Assembly (NCBI GenBank): GCA_028293825.1
Contig: JAQGNY010000049.1
Coordinates: 1 to 64,000 of the forward strand
Source of the DNA: Verrucomicrobiaceae bacterium
Lineage (GTDB): Bacteria; Pseudomonadota; Gammaproteobacteria; Pseudomonadales; CAMLJR01
Direction of reading: 5' to 3'
Length of the DNA stretch: 64,000 nucleotides
Positions within the stretch are counted from its first letter, which is position 1. Every line of letters begins with the position of its first letter. Under the pieces are notes generated by a model, which made no database searches, was not told where the DNA came from, and saw only the letters and a program-made list of their open reading frames with translations. Positions 2,934 through 52,656 of the stretch are shown piece by piece. A program made the translations under genes and the position numbers.

Positions 2934-3396
2934 TTAATTCGCTGCTAATAAATTGCGCGGCGGTCTTTTTACACCGTGTGCTTTTTGCCTGAGCACATCG
3001 GTGTGAATATTCGGCGTTTTCATGTCGGCATGACCGAGCTATTGTTGCACCGTGCGAATATCAGCGCCCGCTTGCAATAAGTGTTCGGCGAAAAAATGCA
3101 AATGCTCGCGATCAATCTCTCTCCCCTCGCAACGCAACAATTCCAACCGACGCAATCCCGGGCCATGCAGCAGCGGCGTCATTTAGCGACACTTCTTTCC
3201 ACTGCTAAAAAATTAAGAAATTTTCCACTTCGATTGTCGAAATTTCTGCTGGATATCGCCTCTGATTGTAGAGAGCGAGGTAACGAATCCAATAAAGGTG
3301 CGAATCGATAGTGCGTAAACTATAAAGCCTCACCACGATCAATTCCCGAATCGATATGAGAAAAGGCGAGCTGGCCATCAAAATCGTTTTTTGCAT
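2934..3396 (-). pseudogene. intI: Decayed integron integrase (intI remnant)
   Basis: Read on the minus strand, ATG 3396 opens about 63 residues that resemble the N-terminal SAM-like domain of integron integrases (SPFLISIR...YSLRT...LYWIR...VENFL), then stop. After a frame change, a second stretch from 3182 shows box I (GPGLRRLELL...EID). It jumps directly to a box II-like segment (H-L-x-F-F-A-E-H-L-L-Q-A-G-A-D-I-R-T-V-Q-Q), then an in-frame TAG at 3039-3041, then LGHADMKTP and IHTDVL, ending GVKRPP. Intact IntI proteins read H-x-L-R-H-S-F-A-T-H-L-L, IYTHVL and GV-S/R-SPL. Thus a box II Arg is missing, the nucleophilic Tyr is His, and several hundred bases between the boxes are gone. The remnant is about 460 bp against roughly 1 kb for a working gene. 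The family call rests on the characteristic C-terminus and YLYWI N-terminus. XerC/XerD do not have the GV.SP ending. Confidence 0.82.
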
Positions 3397-3481
3397 TGCA
3401 ATAGATTCAGGCGTACGACCGGCTTTTTATGCGGTATCCAGCTTACATGAGAAAATCAAGTTGTCGTGATGAAAAGCGCCA

Positions 3482-3542
3482 GCCTAATAATCTGCTAAAT
3501 TTCCTCAGTGCCGATTCTATCCCTTCACATCAAGGATTAGGC
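3482..3542. repeat. attC/attI-like inverted repeat (degenerate, tentative)
   Basis: GCCTAAT at 3482-3488 is the exact inverse of ATTAGGC at 3536-3542. The pair encloses 47 bases, giving a 61-bp element. attC sites have outer boxes RYYYAAC and GTTRRRY about 60-140 bp apart. Here both boxes fit except for a compensating C-to-T / G-to-A change at the crossover position. The sequence TCAAGGATTAG before the right box also resembles known attC right ends. It sits in the expected place, between the 5' end of the integrase remnant and the first accessory gene. The changed crossover base argues that it is inactive or only coincidental. Confidence 0.3.
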
Positions 3543-3597
3543 GTAGAGCCACGGAGCGATAAAATGATTAAGCTGGATTACCCGATAATAATTATTG

Positions 3598-3630
3598 TGA
3601 GACCTTGGTCTCATTAACAGACTGTTATGC
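3598..3630. other. Paired palindromes and possible cassette boundary before first accessory gene
   Basis: TGAGACC (3598-3604) pairs perfectly with GGTCTCA (3607-3613) over a 2-base loop. It is followed at once by TAACAG-A-CTGTTA (3615-3627). The second palindrome contains GTTATGC (3624-3630), one base off the GTTRRRY core at integron recombination points. The ribosome binding site of the next gene starts 4 bases later, as in many gene cassettes. The remaining DNA between 3397 and 3597 has no gene I can support. The role as a boundary is inference. Confidence 0.3.
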
Positions 3631-3645
3631 ATAGAGGAGATAGTC

Positions 3646-4107
3646 GTGGAGCTCAAAGACTTCATCAAAGAAACGCTTGTGCAAATTGCCGTAGGAGTCG
3701 AAGCCGCACAAACAGAGGTCAGGGATTGTGGAGGGTTTGTAAATCCAGCTCATCGCAGTGACCCAAAAAATAATGTTGAAACGCACTTTGGCGTTTTGGG
3801 AAATGGGCAGAATATATTTCTTGTGGACTTTGATATTTCCGTTACGGTCGTCGAGGAAACTGGAGCGGATGCAAAAGCTAAGCTTCAAGTCGTTAGTTTT
3901 CTAAAAATTGGCGTCGGCATCGAATCCAGTACATCAAATAGCGCAACAAATCGAATCGGCTTTAAGGTTCCGTTGGGCCTTCCTGTCGACGCTGTTTCCG
4001 AAGAACAACTTAAGCAAAATGACGCAGAATTGCAGGAAAAACGTCGCAAGCAATCTGAAGCAATTCGTGCTCACAACAAAAACAAAAGTAATAGCTGGAT
4101 GGGTTGA
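3646..4107 (+). CDS. Small protein of unknown function, cassette-like context
   Basis: 153 residues, no signal peptide, no catalytic motif recognised. The N-terminus (MELKDFIKETLVQI) is helical. The middle has alternating hydrophobic strands (FLVDFDISVTVVEE, LQVVSFLKIGVGIES, IGFKVPLGLP) suggesting a small beta-sandwich. The C-terminus is a charged, Gln/Lys-rich helix ending in Asn/Lys repeats. The layout resembles short island-borne proteins such as those with Trypco2-type domains, but that is an impression only. The start is GTG 3646, supported by GAGGAG six bases upstream. The gene sits alone between the integrase remnant and an attC-like repeat that begins 5 bases after its stop, which is how a single-gene integron cassette is built. 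Base composition is visibly AT-richer than kup. Confidence 0.6.
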   Translation: MELKDFIKETLVQIAVGVEAAQTEVRDCGGFVNPAHRSDPKNNVETHFGVLGNGQNIFLVDFDISVTVVEETGADAKAKLQVVSFLKIGVGIESSTSNSATNRIGFKVPLGLPVDAVSEEQLKQNDAELQEKRRKQSEAIRAHNKNKSNSWMG

Positions 4108-4111
4108 CAAT

Positions 4112-4199
4112 GCGTAACAAGGCAGTGGTGTGGGAATGTCTTCACTTCACTTCACTTCACTTCACTGCGTTGCGGCAGCCCTACATCGCGTCGTTGAGG
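4112..4199. repeat. attC-like inverted repeat with internal (TTCAC)5 tandem repeat
   Basis: GCGTAACAAGGCAGTG at 4112-4127 begins 5 bases after a stop codon. Its GCAGTG half pairs with CACTGC at 4163-4168, with weaker pairing outward. A GTTGAGG near 4192-4199 is one base off the GTTRRRY consensus. Five perfect copies of TTCAC fill 4141-4165 in what would be the loop. Position and the TAACAAGGC left end recall integron attC sites, but the outer boxes pair poorly, so it is degenerate or coincidental. From 4200 to 4438 I see no gene. Confidence 0.35.
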
Positions 4200-4438
4200 C
4201 TAGAAAAACCTCCGCACACCAGAAGTGATTTAAAAATGTGCTCATATTTGAAATTACAGAGCGTGCAAAAAAATTGCGTAAGATTTCGCGCAGCGATACA
4301 AAAATTCGAGCGAAGATTCTCCGATATCGCGCGTATTCAACGCGGGTAACTCCGTTGAATTTATTCAATACTTAACAAACCAATAAACTTCGTATCCGTC
4401 GGGTAATAGTTTGTTTTGATGTGTAGGGAGATAGGAGC

Positions 4439-4804
4439 ATGACTTACATCGAGTTTAATAATTTCTGTCGTTCTCTTCCGGCAACTTCACACGTCGTCCA
4501 ATGGGGCGGTTCGCATGTTTGGAAAGTAGGCGCGAAAGTGTTCGCCATCGGCGGCTGGCGGAAATCTGACAAACCGGCATTTACTTTTAAAACATCAGAT
4601 CATAACTTCGATGTTTTGCACGATCAGCCGGGATTCAGGCCGGCTCCATACTTGGCGTCTCGAGGCATGAAGTGGATTCAGCAATACGACATTCCTGCGA
4701 GCGCGGATGACCAGCTCAAATACTATTTAAAAGAATCTCACCGCATTGTTTCGTTGGGATTAACCAAGAAAAAACAAAACGAACTTGGTCTTAATCAAGG
4801 TTAG
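4439..4804 (+). CDS. MmcQ/YjbR family protein
   Basis: 121-residue cytoplasmic protein of the MmcQ/YjbR (CyaY-like fold, double-wing) family. These small proteins are annotated as DNA-binding, and their biochemical role is largely unknown. The conserved layout is visible: an N-terminal helix with FCRSLPATSHVVQWGG, then the strand pair VWKVGAKVFAIGGW, the ligand-like segment FTFKTSD, the PGFRPAPYLASRGMKWI motif around residues 62-78, and a C-terminal helix. ATG 4439 has AGGAG at 4433-4437. It lies in the AT-richer block after the integrase remnant and is followed closely by the GFA-fold gene, which suggests a two-gene transcript. Confidence 0.85.
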   Translation: MTYIEFNNFCRSLPATSHVVQWGGSHVWKVGAKVFAIGGWRKSDKPAFTFKTSDHNFDVLHDQPGFRPAPYLASRGMKWIQQYDIPASADDQLKYYLKESHRIVSLGLTKKKQNELGLNQG

Positions 4805-4861
4805 TATTTGCAACTATTAAATGCAGTCCAGTTAATAAAAAAGAACAACGAGGACGAGTGC

Positions 4862-5266
4862 GTGCCAATTACCGGTGAGTGTTTCTGCGGTAGCATCCAA
4901 TATCAAATTGATGGCGCGCTTAAAGACGCGCGATCCTGTCATTGCTCGCGCTGCCGAAAAGCATTTAGTTCGCAGGCATCAGCCTATGCGCTGGTTGATA
5001 AAGATGAATTTAAATGGATTAAAGGCTGGGCGCTGTTAACCAGTTACGAAAGCCAACCGGGATTTGGTTTGCAGTTTTGCAGTAAATGCGGCTCGACGTT
5101 GTGCGGCACGTATAACGATGAGGTGCACGGAGTAACACTTGGCTGTATCAATGGAAATCCACAAGTTGAAATTGGCTATCACCTTTTTGTGGGTTCGAAG
5201 GCCTCATGGGAATTACTTCCGGAAGGTATTACTGCTTATGCGGAGGGCAAGTCTAAAGATGCTTAG
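4862..5266 (+). CDS. GFA/CENP-V fold zinc-binding protein
   Basis: 134-residue protein of the glutathione-dependent formaldehyde-activating (GFA, CENP-V) superfamily. Members are small zinc proteins, some linked to glutathione chemistry; most are uncharacterised. Zinc-ligand cysteines are present in the usual order: C-x-C-G near residue 7, C-H-C-x-x-C near residue 30 (SCHCSRCRKAF), and C-x-x-C near residue 75 (FCSKCGSTL). The typical ending W-E-L-L-P-E-G...Y is also seen. I place the start at GTG 4862 (MPITGECFCG), with GAGGA upstream, because family members begin just before this strand. A TTG at 4808 in the same frame would add unconserved residues. It lies 57 bases downstream of the MmcQ gene on the same strand. 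Confidence 0.85.
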   Translation: MPITGECFCGSIQYQIDGALKDARSCHCSRCRKAFSSQASAYALVDKDEFKWIKGWALLTSYESQPGFGLQFCSKCGSTLCGTYNDEVHGVTLGCINGNPQVEIGYHLFVGSKASWELLPEGITAYAEGKSKDA

Positions 5267-5361
5267 TAACGTATTGATATGAAGTTTTTTTGGCGGTTGC
5301 TTGGCATTATGTAAACCTGCTCGTGGTGGTATTCAACTTAAATAAAGAAGACGGATGCAGC

Positions 5362-5748
5362 ATGATTTTAATTTATGGAATCAAAGAAAATCTCGATCCA
5401 ATTAAGGCTCGATTATCCGATGTGATACATGGCTGCATGATGTCCGTCCTGGGTATGCCAGCGGATAAGCGGGCGCAGCGTTTTATTCCGATGGCAAAAG
5501 ATGATTTCTATTATCCCGGTGGGCGGACCGACGCTTATACCGTGATTGAAATTACCATGATGGCTGGACGCAAAGCGGAGACGCAGAAAAAACTTATAAA
5601 ATCGCTTTTTAAGGAAATTGAAAGTCAGCTTTCCATCTCGCCTATGGATGTCGAAATAACGATTAAAGAGTTGCCAGCTTATGCGATGGGTTTTCGAGGT
5701 ATGACTGGTGACGAGGCAAATGACCTCACTTACAAAATTAACGTGTAA
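5362..5748 (+). CDS. Tautomerase-superfamily-like protein
   Basis: 128 residues from ATG 5362, which has AAGACGGA a few bases upstream. The sequence resembles the longer tautomerase group (about 130 residues): VLGMPADKRAQRFIPMAKDDFYYPGGRTDAYTVIEI in the first half (split here only for description) and MAGRKAETQKKLI before a helix. The C-terminal strand contains VEITIKELPAYAMGFRG. Tautomerases act through Pro-1 exposed after Met removal. Here Met is followed by Ile-Leu-Ile-Tyr, so that proline is absent unless the real start differs; an upstream TTG (5290) does not supply it either. Function is therefore open: a catalytically altered paralogue is likely. It sits between the GFA gene and the beta-lactamase. 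Confidence 0.7.
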   Translation: MILIYGIKENLDPIKARLSDVIHGCMMSVLGMPADKRAQRFIPMAKDDFYYPGGRTDAYTVIEITMMAGRKAETQKKLIKSLFKEIESQLSISPMDVEITIKELPAYAMGFRGMTGDEANDLTYKINV

Positions 5749-5825
5749 AAGAGTGCGGGTAGTGCCCGGTGTTTTCTGTACTTTTTAGTTTTATGCCAAG
5801 CTCTCACTGCTCTAATGGTTAATAC

Positions 5826-6701
5826 ATGAAATATTTTCTGACGGTATTTGTTTTTATATTTACTTCGATGGCGTCCGCATCGGGGGTCACAGCACCACCG
5901 CAAGATTTCACGGCGAAAATTTCTGCGCTGGAAAATAAAAGTAGCGGGCGAATTGGTGTATCTGTCATTTCTGATAATGGAACATCGCTTTTTTCATATC
6001 GTGAAGACGAGCGGTTCGCGATGTGTAGTACGTTTAAGGCGCTGCTCTCGGCTTTTATTTTGTCGCGAGTCGATTCAAATTTGGAAGGGCTCGATAGATC
6101 GATAACGTACACATCAGCCGATATTTTAGAGCATGCGCCAATCGCAAAAATGCATCTGAGCGCGGGACATATGACGGTGTCGGAATTGAACGCGGCGTCA
6201 ATTCAATACAGCGATAATACGGCGGCCAATTTGCTGCTCGCTTCAAGCGGTGGCCCACAGGCGCTTACGCAATATCTACGCTCCATCGGCGACAACACAA
6301 CGCGTCTTGACCGCAACGAGCCATCATTGAATACGAATGTAGCGGGCGACTCACGTGATACCAGCACTCCAGGCGCCATGGTTAAAACGCTGCAAAAGAT
6401 TTTGATCGGTAACAGTCTTTCACCCGCGTCTAAAGAGCAGCTAAAAAGCTGGATGTTTGGAAATACCACGGGCGACAGTAAGCTCAGGGCTGGCTTCGAT
6501 AGATTTTGGATGGTCGGCGACAAAACCGGCAGCGGCGCGAATGGCGCAAGCAATGATGTCGCTGTGGTATTTCCGCGCGGCCTTTCTCCTTTTATTATTG
6601 CTGTGTTTTACGCAGGCTCGGCGGCATCCGATGATGAAAAAAATGCGGTTAATGCCGACGTGGCGCGGATCACTCGCGACTCTCTGCTGAGCAATCACTA
6701 G
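5826..6701 (+). CDS. bla: Class A beta-lactamase
   Basis: Periplasmic serine beta-lactamase, 291 residues. A signal peptide (MKYFLTVFVFIFTSMASA) is followed by the mature domain with every class A motif: S68-T-F-K71 (Ambler S70-x-x-K), S129-D-N (SDN loop), E165 in R-N-E-P-S-L-N (omega loop) and K233-T-G (KTG). Residue 67 just before the serine is Cys, as in many carbapenemases and ESBLs. The KTG is followed by S-G-A-N-G, however, so the partner Cys at Ambler 238 that forms a disulfide in KPC/SME/GES enzymes is not there. The substrate spectrum cannot be read from sequence. ATG 5826 has only a weak ribosome binding site. It is the last gene of the AT-richer block behind the integrase remnant, which suggests acquisition; no adjacent AmpR-type regulator is seen. 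Confidence 0.93.
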   Translation: MKYFLTVFVFIFTSMASASGVTAPPQDFTAKISALENKSSGRIGVSVISDNGTSLFSYREDERFAMCSTFKALLSAFILSRVDSNLEGLDRSITYTSADILEHAPIAKMHLSAGHMTVSELNAASIQYSDNTAANLLLASSGGPQALTQYLRSIGDNTTRLDRNEPSLNTNVAGDSRDTSTPGAMVKTLQKILIGNSLSPASKEQLKSWMFGNTTGDSKLRAGFDRFWMVGDKTGSGANGASNDVAVVFPRGLSPFIIAVFYAGSAASDDEKNAVNADVARITRDSLLSNH

Positions 6702-6884
6702 AAGCTCAAAATTTAATGAGCTCCAGCGCTCTGCTGTGGTGAAATATTTAATGTTGTCCGTAAATTTTCAGCAACGAAGTTGCAGAGTGCACTGCACGAT
6801 AGCTGCCGCTATAAGTTTTATGTGACAATTCGCGTTCAAATTTTTCCTCCATATCACTCACTCAATTTATTTCACAGAGGTTCT

Positions 6885-7580
6885 ATGTCGACCATTCATT
6901 TCATCGGCGGCGAAAAAGGCGGCGTGGGCAAATCAGTGACTGCGCGATTACTGGCGCAATATATGATCGATCGCCAATTACCCTTTATCGGTTTCGATAC
7001 GGATCGTTCGCACGGCGCGCTGCTGCGCTATTACACGGATTTTGCGTCGCCGACGATTATCGACAGCTATCAAAGTCTGGATGCCATTATGGAAGTGGCG
7101 GCCGAGCAACCGGGAAAACGTATCCTGGTCGATCTCGCGGCGCAGACGCATCACCCATTGGCGCGTTGGATCGATGAATCCGGCGTACTTGAGCTGGCGT
7201 CCGAATTGGGCATTTCGATCTGCTATTGGAATGTAATGGATTCCGGTAAAGACAGCGTGGACTTGCTCGGCAAGTTGTTCGATCAATTCGGCACGCGCCT
7301 GAACTATGTGTTGGTGCTGAACCAATTGCGCGACGATAGCTTCAACATTTTGGAAAACTCGGATGTGAAAGCGCGCGCGCAAAGCTTGAATGCAAAAATA
7401 TTTACGCTGAAACGTTTGCATGCGCCAGTGATGACCAAAATCGACAGCAATAGCTACAGCTTCTGGGCGGCAAAAAATAAAGATGCCGACAATGCCAACG
7501 GCCTGGGCTTACTTGAACGTCAGCGCGTAAAAATGTGGCTGGACAGCGTCTATAAAGAGTTCGATGCGGTCGGTGTTTAA
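6885..7580 (+). CDS. Solitary ParA/MinD-type ATPase
   Basis: 231-residue P-loop ATPase of the ParA/MinD/SIMIBI class. The deviant Walker A GGEKGGVGKS is at residues 8-17. A FDTDRS motif follows near residue 37, where other family members have switch/Walker A' elements, and ILVDLAAQTHH (Walker B-like) near residue 83. No N-terminal HTH is present, unlike plasmid ParA of type Ia. No ParB, MipZ partner, or mobilisation genes are adjacent, so its cargo is unknown. It resembles short MobD/ParA-like ATPases found singly on chromosomes and plasmids. I choose ATG 6885 with AGAGG at 6876-6880; the open frame extends upstream but lacks conservation. A strong intrinsic terminator ends the transcript at 7629-7656. 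Confidence 0.8.
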   Translation: MSTIHFIGGEKGGVGKSVTARLLAQYMIDRQLPFIGFDTDRSHGALLRYYTDFASPTIIDSYQSLDAIMEVAAEQPGKRILVDLAAQTHHPLARWIDESGVLELASELGISICYWNVMDSGKDSVDLLGKLFDQFGTRLNYVLVLNQLRDDSFNILENSDVKARAQSLNAKIFTLKRLHAPVMTKIDSNSYSFWAAKNKDADNANGLGLLERQRVKMWLDSVYKEFDAVGV

Positions 7581-7924: not shown

Positions 7925-8023
7925 TCACCAATGGCGGTGATACGAAAACAGAATTGAGCAATGGCGCTCATTGCTGTGTGAATTCGCTTCGACGAATTGC
8001 ACAGTGATGAACGCCTTTTTTTT
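7925..8023 (+). promoter_or_regulatory. ANTAR-type dual-hairpin antitermination leader upstream of nrtA
   Basis: Hairpin 1: TCACC (7925-7929), loop AATGGC, GGTGA (7936-7940). Hairpin 2: TGAGC (7955-7959), loop AATGGC (7960-7965), GCTCA (7966-7970). Both hexaloops have A at position 1 and G at position 4, the rule for RNAs bound by ANTAR regulators such as NasR, NasT and EutV. A terminator follows: arm GGCGCTCATTGCTGTG (7963-7978) pairs, with a few mismatches, with CACAGTGATGAACGCC (8000-8015), then eight Ts (8016-8023). The terminator arm uses the loop and 3' side of hairpin 2, so the two structures exclude each other. Binding of an ANTAR protein would thus allow readthrough into nrtA. The regulator is not encoded in the window. 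Confidence 0.9.
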
Positions 8024-8099: not shown

Positions 8100-9497
8100 A
8101 TGACGACAATTAAAAAACGACGTGGCTCGATCAGCCGTCGCACTTGGATTAAATCGCTTGCCGCCACTGCGATCGGAATCGCGTTGCTGAGCAATGGCGC
8201 CTACGCGGCCGTTGGCAAACCAGAAAAATGGGAATTGAAATTCGGCTTTATTAAATTGACCGATATGGTGCCACTCGCAATTGCCTACGAAAAAGGCTAT
8301 TTCGAGGACGAAGGTTTATACGTCACGCTCGAAGCACAAGCCAATTGGAAAGTATTGTTCGACCGCGTCGTGTCCGGCGAACTTGACGGCGCGCATATGC
8401 TCGCTGCGATGCCGGTAGGTGCAGCCACCGGCGTGATCACAAAGACAGATATCGTTACGCCATTCACGCTGTCATACAACGGCGCCGCAATTACCGTTTC
8501 CAATTCGGTGTGGGCGGAAATCAAAAAAACCGTGCCAATGGAAAACGGTAAACCGAAACATCCTATCAGCGCCGCTGCATTAAAACCGGTGCTCGAATCT
8601 TATAAAGCCGCCGGCAAACCGTTCAATCTAGCGATGACATTCCCGGTTGGCACACACAATTATATTGAGCGCTATTGGCTCGCCGCAGGCGGGATAAATC
8701 CGGGTCTTTATGCACCGGAAAAAGGCGATAACAGCGGCTCGATCGGCGCTGAAGCCTTGCTGTCGGTAGTGCCTCCGCCGCAAATGGTGCCAACCATGGA
8801 AGCGGGTACAACTGTCGGTTACTGCGTCGGCGAACCGTGGAATCAGCAGGCCGTGACCAAAGGTCTCGGCGTGCCGGTAATGACTAGCGAAAATATTTGG
8901 GTCGATGGTGCCGATAAAGTATTTGGCGTGACCAAAGCGTTCGCCGATAAAAATCCCAACACCACCATTCGCACGGTTAAAGCATTAATTCGTGCATCGG
9001 CGTGGCTCGATGCGAACAACAACGGCAATCGCCCAGAAGCGGTGAAAATAATTTCGCGCCCCGCCTATGTCGGTGCCGATGAAAAAGTTATCGCCAATAG
9101 CATGACCGGCACATTTGAATTCGAAAAAGGCGACAAGCGCCCGATCCCCGATTTCAATAAATTCTTCCGCGGCCAATACGGCATTCCGTATTACTCCGAT
9201 GCGGTGTGGTGGATGACACAAATGCGCCGTTGGGGAAATATCGCCGAACAAAAACCGGATAGCTGGTACATGGATATGGCGAAGAAAGCCTATCGCCCCG
9301 ACATCTACGTCACCGCTGCCAAAGAGTTGATCGCCGAAGGAAAAATGAAAGCATCGGATTTCCCGGATCTCGATACCCAGACCTTCGTCAAAGCACCGCA
9401 GAAAGGGCCGCTCGATGGTATCGAATACGACGGCACTAAACCGAATGCGTATCTGGAAAAATTTGCGATTGGTTTGAAAGGCAATCAAAAGTCTTAA
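8100..9497 (+). CDS. nrtA: Nitrate ABC transporter substrate-binding protein NrtA
   Basis: 465-residue periplasmic nitrate/nitrite-binding protein of the NrtA/CmpA/NasF group. The N-terminus has a twin-arginine signal (SRRTWIK followed by a hydrophobic stretch and AYA), as expected for Tat export. The family segment KFGFIKLTDMVPLAIAYEKG (about residues 46-65) begins the mature domain, and VGYCVGEPWN lies about two thirds of the way towards the middle. The length and export signal separate it from the cytoplasmic sensor NasS, a shorter relative. It is the first gene after the conditional terminator at 7963-8023 and is followed by the permease and ATPase genes. Nitrate rather than bicarbonate as ligand is inferred from the linked nirB, nirD and nasA. 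Confidence 0.92.
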   Translation: MTTIKKRRGSISRRTWIKSLAATAIGIALLSNGAYAAVGKPEKWELKFGFIKLTDMVPLAIAYEKGYFEDEGLYVTLEAQANWKVLFDRVVSGELDGAHMLAAMPVGAATGVITKTDIVTPFTLSYNGAAITVSNSVWAEIKKTVPMENGKPKHPISAAALKPVLESYKAAGKPFNLAMTFPVGTHNYIERYWLAAGGINPGLYAPEKGDNSGSIGAEALLSVVPPPQMVPTMEAGTTVGYCVGEPWNQQAVTKGLGVPVMTSENIWVDGADKVFGVTKAFADKNPNTTIRTVKALIRASAWLDANNNGNRPEAVKIISRPAYVGADEKVIANSMTGTFEFEKGDKRPIPDFNKFFRGQYGIPYYSDAVWWMTQMRRWGNIAEQKPDSWYMDMAKKAYRPDIYVTAAKELIAEGKMKASDFPDLDTQTFVKAPQKGPLDGIEYDGTKPNAYLEKFAIGLKGNQKS

Positions 9498-51651: not shown

Positions 51652-52656
51652 CTATTTTTTGAAGATCGCCAGCAACAGTAAAATCAAAACCAATAAAAAT
51701 GTTGTGGCGGTGCCTAGGGCAATTTGTTTTCTACTAAATGCCCGCGGTGTTAATTCCGGCACCGCTTCGGCTGCGTCGTAACCAATCCGAAATTCAATTT
51801 CCGTGCGACCCAGACGAATGCGGTCGCCCGATTTTAAATCGGCCGCCTCTACCGCCTGTCCATTTACATAGAGTTTATTCGCCGCATTGATATTGACGAT
51901 TTGCCACAGCGTGCCGTGCTTGACGATGCGCGCGTGCTCGCGCGATACGGTGCGATCGATTAATTCCAGATCGGCATTGTCGCTGCGGCCGATGGTCCAT
52001 TGTCCCAGCGCGCCATTCGGGCGCAACGCGAATACCTTGCCGCGAATCGGCGCGCTCAACACCAATAAGCACGGACCTTTCACCGCTTCGCCAGGGCGCT
52101 GCACATTTAATTCCTTGCGCGCGATTTGGTCGAGGTTGGCAAGATCGTCGGTGTTCAATAAATAGGTCGAATCGGCGTCGAGTGCGGCATCGCTATTCTG
52201 CAGCGGTTGCGCTCGCGAAATAGGCGCAACAATCGGTGGTGGCGTTTTAACGCTGTCGCTTTTTGCGATCGCGGCGGCGGCTTTAATCGGCTCGGCGCGT
52301 GCAGCTAACGAAGTCGCATCCACCATCATGGTGGAATCGGCCGCGCCAGAGTCTGCGCTGGTTAAACGTAAACTCACTTTGTGCAAACGCAGTTCGTCGC
52401 CCACAGCCATTGTGCGCGGCGCATTGACGCGCACCCCATTGATATAAGTGCCATTGGTCGAGTGCAAATCTTCAACGATAACTGCACCGGGACTTTTGAT
52501 GGTTAATTTGGCGTGATAGCGCGATACCTTGCTGTCCGCGAGTACGATCTGACATTCGGCTTCGCGACCGATCATGGTCACTGCGTGGAGCGGGAACGGT
52601 TTGCCGTGCTGGTCGCGCAAAACCAAACTGGGAGCAGCGGAAAAATTTTTATTCAT
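51652..52656 (-). CDS. Twin FHA-domain protein with C-terminal membrane anchor
   Basis: 334 residues. FHA domain 1 is at about 20-90, with IGREAECQ, SRYHAKL and NGTYINGVRV. A Pro/Ala/Ser-rich linker follows, then FHA domain 2 (about 190-275) with IGRSDNADL and SREHARIVK. One terminal helix (QIALGTATTFLLVLILLLLAIF) leaves two Lys outside. FHA domains bind phosphothreonine, so this is a membrane-tethered phosphopeptide reader. No Ser/Thr kinase gene is nearby, so the partner is unknown. ATG 52656 has AAGGAG eight bases upstream. An in-frame extension to 52962 is not conserved. It is divergent from aas. Confidence 0.88.
   Translation of the reverse strand: MNKNFSAAPSLVLRDQHGKPFPLHAVTMIGREAECQIVLADSKVSRYHAKLTIKSPGAVIVEDLHSTNGTYINGVRVNAPRTMAVGDELRLHKVSLRLTSADSGAADSTMMVDATSLAARAEPIKAAAAIAKSDSVKTPPPIVAPISRAQPLQNSDAALDADSTYLLNTDDLANLDQIARKELNVQRPGEAVKGPCLLVLSAPIRGKVFALRPNGALGQWTIGRSDNADLELIDRTVSREHARIVKHGTLWQIVNINAANKLYVNGQAVEAADLKSGDRIRLGRTEIEFRIGYDAAEAVPELTPRAFSRKQIALGTATTFLLVLILLLLAIFKK

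Follow-up and report, generated by a model that had tools for sequence, protein, structure and literature searches.

Chromosomal integrons that have lost their integrase are already a known kind of element (PMC2426708, PMC12444791, PMC9024848). In the parts of the published accounts available to us, the chromosomal integrons of Xanthomonas lie downstream of ilvD and carry an inactivated intI (PMC12444791), intI pseudogenes, or pseudo-integrons, account for nearly one third of the intI genes in a 2008 survey (PMC2426708), and clusters of attC sites without an integrase are termed CALIN (PMC9024848). The available portions of two further reports place the Trypco2 proteins in VMAP-type conflict systems (PMC7159879, PMC10907252).

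The locus described here lies next to kup in a window of 64,000 nucleotides, the whole stretch of DNA analyzed (contig C29:1-64000), from a genome of 4.34 Mb in 56 contigs that is 96% complete. It presents a decayed intI, a whole attI, and a first cassette with a worn attC (Table 1), and is very probably a dead sedentary chromosomal integron in which the first cassette is frozen. An earlier sequence-only reading had proposed that the integron lost its recombinase and froze this cassette, and the proposal is borne out by matches to the integron integrase model, an attI shared with relatives, the worn attC, and a gene that is a cassette in another genome.

TABLE 1 Features of the integron locus beside kup, in window positions
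Feature	Position	Strand	Basis or remark
intI pseudogene (integron integrase)	2934..3396	(-)	Stops and frame changes; TIGR02249 matches, translations, hmmscan, tblastn to IntIs of the order
IntI C-terminal piece	2961..3098	(-)	Model positions 266-311; Arg lost, Tyr replaced by His, internal TAG
Box I piece (GPGLRRLELL)	3111..3182	(-)	Translation frame; 21-aa match to L021 IntI, E 0.056, weak alone
IntI N-terminal piece	3211..3363	(-)	Model positions 1-51
Fossil attI	3575..3630	(+)	Alignment with six other sites, one beside an intact IntI
Palindrome TGAGACC-TT-GGTCTCA inside attI	3598..3613	(+)	Covaries with relatives
First frozen cassette gene, Trypco2-like protein, 153 aa	3646..4107	(+)	PF19631 below cutoff; cassette homologues L039, L094, L095
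Degenerate attC of first cassette (GCGTAACAAGGC ... GTCGTTGAGGC), expanded TTCAC run	4112..4200	(+)	Covariance model, local alignment
YjbR/MmcQ-family gene, probable former cassette	4439..4804	(+)	PF04237; homologues L123 and L127 beside attC
GFA-family gene, probable former cassette	4862..5266	(+)	PF04828; attC on both sides of homologues L102 and L108
Tautomerase_2 gene, probable former cassette	5362..5748	(+)	PF14552; attC on both sides of homologues L138, L139, L143, and L147; L140 at attI
Class A beta-lactamase gene, end of run; cassette origin unproven	5826..6701	(+)	NF033103, 312 bits; best homologue in the order 43%

The intI remnant retains approximately 460 bp of the approximately 960 bp of an intact gene, the missing 500 bp or so matching the loss of several hundred bases noted previously, and its last stop codon adjoins that of kup. 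A search with TIGR02249, as had been suggested, retrieved both terminal pieces (53.6 bits for the C-terminal and 23.4 bits for the N-terminal piece) in the right order and on the right strand for an integron integrase. Both scores lie below the model cutoff of 265, and the integrase gene is present as a pseudogene only. Pfam assigns the pieces to the general Phage_int_SAM_4 and Phage_integrase families only. The LYWIR region, box I, and the GV..P ending (GVKRP near the end of the remnant) recognized in the sequence-only reading are visible in the translation and are borne out by alignments to 30 IntI loci from the order, box I being a weak match on its own. The same alignments confirm that the box II arginine is lost (HTFRH or HTLRH in relatives, REHLH in the remnant) and that a histidine occupies the position of the nucleophilic tyrosine (IYTHV in relatives, IHTDV in the remnant). 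We take the arginines of boxes I and II and this tyrosine to be the catalytic residues of IntI. With box I kept, the box II arginine and the tyrosine replaced, and a TAG codon inside, the catalytic set is incomplete, and the locus is therefore a fossil and not a working integron. The additional domain specific to IntI would presumably fall in the deleted stretch between the surviving pieces.

Among the 30 loci, the nearest to the C-terminal piece by E value is the partial IntI of genome G025 (L037; 54% over 71 aa), followed at a nearly level E value by the intact IntI of G037 (L019; 67% over 46 aa). For the N-terminal piece, the G037 protein is the nearest of these loci (43% over 63 aa), and outside them the nearest is the IntI remnant of G316 (52.7% over 55 aa). 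A profile search of the window's own genome, at its 96% completeness, retrieved no intact intI and no match above the cutoff; a 326-aa frame on contig C51 matches the integron integrase model weakly and is probably a Xer-type recombinase. The same genome holds a second decayed tyrosine recombinase C terminus with stops (G000:C16:42041-42278, locus L007 8060-8290; TIGR02249, 46.8 bits), around which no attC or attI motif was found in the 13.8 kb read. Directly upstream of the G316 intI remnant is a box (L177 11176-11191; CTGTATAGATATACAG) that we presume to be LexA-like.

Between the intI remnant and the first cassette, with the cassettes diverging from intI, lies a whole attI of 56 bases. The GTTATGC boundary pointed out in the sequence-only reading is real and corresponds to the crossover point of this site, which by analogy would fall between 3624 (G) and 3625 (T). 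The site was aligned over 71 columns with those of G037, G315, G316, G077, contig C1 of the same genome, and the same-genus genome G001, giving seven sites in all. In G037 this kind of sequence precedes the array beside an intact IntI, in G315 and G316 it accompanies IntI fragments, and in G077 it lies upstream of a tautomerase cassette. The type thus occurs in five genomes besides that of the window and spans four families of the order (f1, f37, f40, and f41). Over columns 2-57, the window site is identical to that of G037 in 44 of 55 columns (80%) and to the remaining sites in 39 to 41 of 55 or 56. A tblastn search with 24 IntI queries (E ≤ 0.05) around the sites of G077, C1, and G001 covered 19.0, 16.0, and 8.6 kb, respectively, and turned up no IntI apart from one match of 30 aa in G077 (E 0.034). 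The distance from the intI start to the crossover is about 246 bases in the window, 195 in G037, and 232 in G316. The attI core, CTCATTAACAGACTGTTA, occurs once in the window, with no other occurrence at up to 4 mismatches, and a plasmid search with the attI region gave no match.

The palindrome within the attI is 98% paired over the seven sites, and two of its pairs are changed on both sides, each in one sequence, of which the window is one. When the 11-pair structure is taken as a whole, its observed value is attained in 7 of 500 shuffles, a modest result given seven sequences and a structure read off those same sequences. A pattern search with a fixed 4-base loop, which undercounts, found the site in 3 of 390 genomes; it missed G037, G077, and G001, which are among the 390 and were found by a looser scan of fetched loci. 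That scan covered only loci fetched for other reasons, and the share of its sites with a dead intI is no rate; one of its rows, from a Flavobacteriales MAG (L057), was dropped as a chance match. When hairpins were sought upstream of 24 IntI frames from the order (the two best per locus), this palindrome appeared in the G037 locus only, the remaining loci having different palindromes or none. The site heads cassettes beside a broken intI (window, G315, and G316) or with no detectable intI (C1, G001, and G077), and it might, tentatively, represent an as yet undescribed type of attI that persists after its integrase is lost and is marked, upstream of the crossover, by a palindrome that is conserved and covaries. 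This palindrome may contribute to the recognition of attI. No obvious precedent for an attI palindrome was found in the literature covered, which included little work on attI structure (PMC8946536, in the part available). The attI type is the fresher part of the finding and may be new.

The protein encoded by the first cassette matches the Trypco2 family (PF19631) at 21.9 bits (E 2.1e-4), under the gathering cutoff of 24.2, and is likely a relative of Trypco2 rather than a filed member, so that the gene, previously described as an unknown, is no longer wholly one. A scan of named genomes retrieved 25 loci with homologues, of which the closest (L039; 76%) is a cassette that shares the GTTATGCATA boundary and is directly preceded by an attC (20.6 bits); its downstream attC was read by eye and was not listed by the covariance model. 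The attC model matched in 3 of the 25 loci, namely L039, L044 (16.5 bits, E 0.12), and L061, and found no attC at four loci with homologues at 56 to 65% identity (L040-L043). Within the order the gene occurs in 3 of 293 genomes, own included (E ≤ 1e-6), and the two other homologues are flanked by attC on both sides (L094; 45%) or on one side (L095; 34%). Plasmid searches with the protein returned 2 distant records (30 to 35%), and PADLOC gave no match for four proteins. The AlphaFold model is mediocre (mean pLDDT 70.1, pTM 0.47) and had 0 matches in a PDB fold search at E ≤ 0.001; a sequence search of the PDB with the profile of the protein found nothing at E ≤ 1.

The attC-like repeat that had been noticed after this gene is real but degenerate. 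With filters off, the covariance model detects it at 14.0 bits (E 0.016 in 4.1 kb) but places its right arm incorrectly, whereas with default filters over the whole window the site is missed and the one match is at 52245-52367(-) (12.4 bits, E 0.66). In local alignments against a library of 46 attC sites, to which L039 and further cassettes from this study contribute, the window site reaches a best score of 45, from GCGTAAC to GTCGTT, and 0 of 400 random window segments reach 45. Folded as a single strand, 4108-4201 shows no advantage over shuffles (z 0.88). Both borders of the gene that the sequence-only reading saw as standing alone are thus real, but the gene is followed by three or four further genes that are likely former cassettes.

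The neighboring kup was confirmed by the Pfam K_trans family (631.8 bits) and is found in 11 of 105 genomes of the order, own included; it was not found in G001, the one same-genus genome drawn, in a sample that holds no other genome of the same family. At 12 kup loci in 10 other genomes, no IntI (4 queries) or neighbor gene of the window lies within the 1.5-kb flanks. With kup flanks unconserved, an attC signal present, and Xer models scoring below TIGR02249, neither of the two outcomes that the sequence-only reading had set against itself, a better Xer or phage integrase homologue or a missing attC signal in a conserved neighborhood, was found. In another genome, 2.4 kb separates the end of kup from an intact intI that belongs to a different lineage (L075 and L190, G029:C1:3648894-3654125).

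Elsewhere in the window's genome the attC model matches on C1 (37 bits), on C19 (29.8 and 20.4 bits), and, at chance level, on C20 (15.2 bits), a tally that is a lower bound, with 150 of 995 first-look candidates scored. Contig C19 holds an integrase-less cassette array (L090 7936-9456) with attC sites at 7936-8022 and 9370-9456 by the model and a third one recognized by eye at about 8961-9047. The array lies between genes named by eye as cysteine desulfurase-like and lysozyme-like, and no attI motif was found in the 16 kb read. A CALIN comprises at least two attC sites with no nearby integrase: the window locus has one recognizable attC, and C19 has two by the model. On the minus strand of C1, a second attI of the window type heads an HNH-like cassette (named by eye) with a clear attC (L089 7949-8940), and in G001 an attI of this type heads two attC-bounded cassettes at the end of an 8.6-kb contig (L091 6783-8454, G001:C136).

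The run of genes after the first cassette suggests a longer frozen array, which is probable for the next three genes and doubtful for the fourth. In relatives, the YjbR, GFA, and tautomerase genes have attC-flanked cassette homologues that are 66 to 77% identical. Homologues, own included, occur in 30 of 244 genomes for YjbR and 28 of 244 for the tautomerase (both E ≤ 1e-15), 38 of 293 for GFA (E ≤ 1e-25), and 13 of 244 for the beta-lactamase (E ≤ 1e-30). The attC model was run on the best listed loci of each family, 19 for each of the first three and 12 for the beta-lactamase. Sites were found at 2 of 19 YjbR loci (L123 on both sides, L127 on one), 2 of 19 GFA loci (both sides), and 5 of 19 tautomerase loci (four on both sides, and L140 on one side together with an attI), compared with 0 of 21 control loci (12 kup and 9 TraL-like). 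At the 12 beta-lactamase loci no attC adjoins the gene, the one seen in L165 being more than 500 bases off. Fisher's test of 9 of 57 against 0 of 33 (controls and beta-lactamase loci pooled) gives a p of 0.024, a guide only, as related genomes are not independent. Two window genes occur together at 1 of 78 homologue loci (L162), and there is therefore no conserved operon in that sample. The three genes were thus likely cassettes, and the beta-lactamase may have been one too, which is on the whole doubtful, there being no direct sign of cassette origin.

The beta-lactamase exceeds the NF033103 cutoff of 200, and its translation shows SxxK, SDN, ExxxN, and KTG, which we take to be the family motifs. 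Among plasmid records, the best-ranked are no more than 49% identical to it, and the 5000 matches listed include none at 60% or above. A promoter and terminator scan of 3100-7000 gave fewer sites than in shuffles. After the beta-lactamase comes a chromosomal ParA/TraL-like ATPase gene (6885-7577; NF010461, 46.6 bits, below the cutoff of 360), found in 9 of 105 genomes of the order, own included. A second, partial YjbR homologue lies in the same genome (G000:C18:188656-188934; 62% over 93 aa), and in L117 (G064:C54) a YjbR homologue (81%) begins right after the end of a tyrosine recombinase frame; the L117 locus ends within 30 bases after the gene and is uninformative for attC on that side. A candidate attC piece at 4370-4428 (4.3 bits, E 7) and hand-read attC traces, GTGTAAA after the tautomerase and GTTTTATGCC about 18 bases before the beta-lactamase ATG, were set aside and not used as evidence.

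The same observations can be read as a fossil integron with a single cassette, the YjbR, GFA, tautomerase, and beta-lactamase genes being ordinary genes that were already beside kup or arrived otherwise. At five later stretches, from 5' of YjbR to 3' of the beta-lactamase, local alignment to attC sites gives background-level scores, and the extension to the later genes therefore rests on homologues. Most of the best listed loci also lack an adjoining attC (17 of 19 for YjbR, 17 of 19 for GFA, 14 of 19 for the tautomerase, and 12 of 12 for the beta-lactamase), and homologues as close or closer stand without one (L121 for YjbR, L137 for the tautomerase, and L098 and L100 for GFA), so the YjbR, GFA, and tautomerase families also live as ordinary genes. 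A single cassette leaves aside, however, that three consecutive genes on one strand each have cassette-borne homologues, that the controls carry no attC, that 77 of the 78 loci show no conserved neighborhood, and that the presence of the three genes among genomes is patchy. It is a serious alternative but an improbable one, and an array longer than one cassette is the preferred reading.

Two other explanations concern the intI remnant. The remnant could derive from XerC, XerD, or a phage integrase, as only fragments survive, the diagnostic IntI domain is gone, and XerD scores higher on the C-terminal piece (45.5 bits) than the second integron model, NF011946 (34.8 bits, also below XerC). Yet TIGR02249 reaches 59.4 bits on this piece in NCBIfam, 14 bits ahead of XerD and further ahead of XerC (39.1 bits), the N-terminal piece matches two integron integrase models only (25.9 and 22.7 bits), and the attI matches that of an intact IntI. 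The NCBIfam comparison led to rejection of a Xer or phage origin, which is extremely improbable, and upholds the integrase identity originally proposed. The array might also be a CALIN formed by cassette insertion at a secondary (attG-like) site, with the intI remnant beside it by coincidence. The same genome does hold integrase-less cassettes, for example on C19, where no attI motif was found in the 16 kb read. In the window, however, intI and the first cassette are separated by a full attI, of the type found with this IntI lineage, and such an origin is highly unlikely. The evidence from both the remnant and the attI thus favors a dead chromosomal integron.

All five open reading frames are intact beside the wrecked intI. 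Between the window and homologues, pN is 0.12 to 0.30 for the four presumed cassette genes, 0.41 to 0.43 for the beta-lactamase, and 0.27 to 0.30 for kup, values that, like those of pS, span both lineages. For the four genes pS is 0.70 to 0.88 and mostly saturated, so no usable dN/dS is obtained. In a neutral simulation with substitutions only, the number of runs, out of 400, in which all five frames stay stop-free falls from 51 at 0.02 substitutions per site to 4 at 0.05 and 0 at 0.1, in units not calibrated to the drift of intI. The suggestion that the first gene was carried for selective benefit thus finds indirect support in intact frames and low pN, the benefit itself staying conjectural.

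In the proposed history, IntI, encoded on the minus strand, would have caught circular cassettes by recombining their attC sites with attI at 3624/3625, which would have built up a row of plus-strand cassettes leading away from intI. The integrase gene would then have decayed through large deletions, frame changes, and stops, and without it the attC sites would have eroded, the one after the first cassette being still recognizable. The Trypco2-like, YjbR, GFA, and tautomerase genes, and perhaps the beta-lactamase, may have been left as ordinary fixed genes kept by selection. The order of these events, the expression of the genes, and their benefit are all inferred. The locus illustrates in detail how mobile cassettes, after their capture, can turn into fixed genes of the chromosome when the integrase is lost. 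If the attI type holds true, it could flag fossil integrons missed by integrase- and attC-based searches and separate degraded integrons from cassettes at secondary sites; found across four families, it would give a handle on dead integrons, including those down to one worn attC.

As far as the available parts of the published accounts allow a comparison, the locus is closest to the ilvD integrons of Xanthomonas, which are likewise sedentary at a chromosomal gene, have an intI broken by deletions, stops, and frameshifts, hold stabilized cassette arrays, and share their genomes with other CALINs; here the site is next to kup, any attC beyond the first cassette is unrecognizable, and the attI is of the type described above (PMC12444791). 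Pseudo-integrons, in the portion of the survey at hand, similarly have an intI with stops, frameshifts, and deletions, whereas here the decay is strong, with over half of intI gone, and the attI was identified from relatives (PMC2426708). Weak as it is, the Pfam match of the first cassette protein recalls the Trypco2 proteins of VMAP-type systems as they appear in the sections available, but none of the nine proteins encoded between 68 and 9497 is a trypsin-like peptidase, vWA, or MoxR partner by Pfam (PMC7159879, PMC10907252). Like a CALIN, as defined in the accessible part of its description, the locus carries cassettes without a working integrase; it differs in keeping an intI remnant and an attI together with one weak attC, which a two-attC rule misses (PMC9024848).
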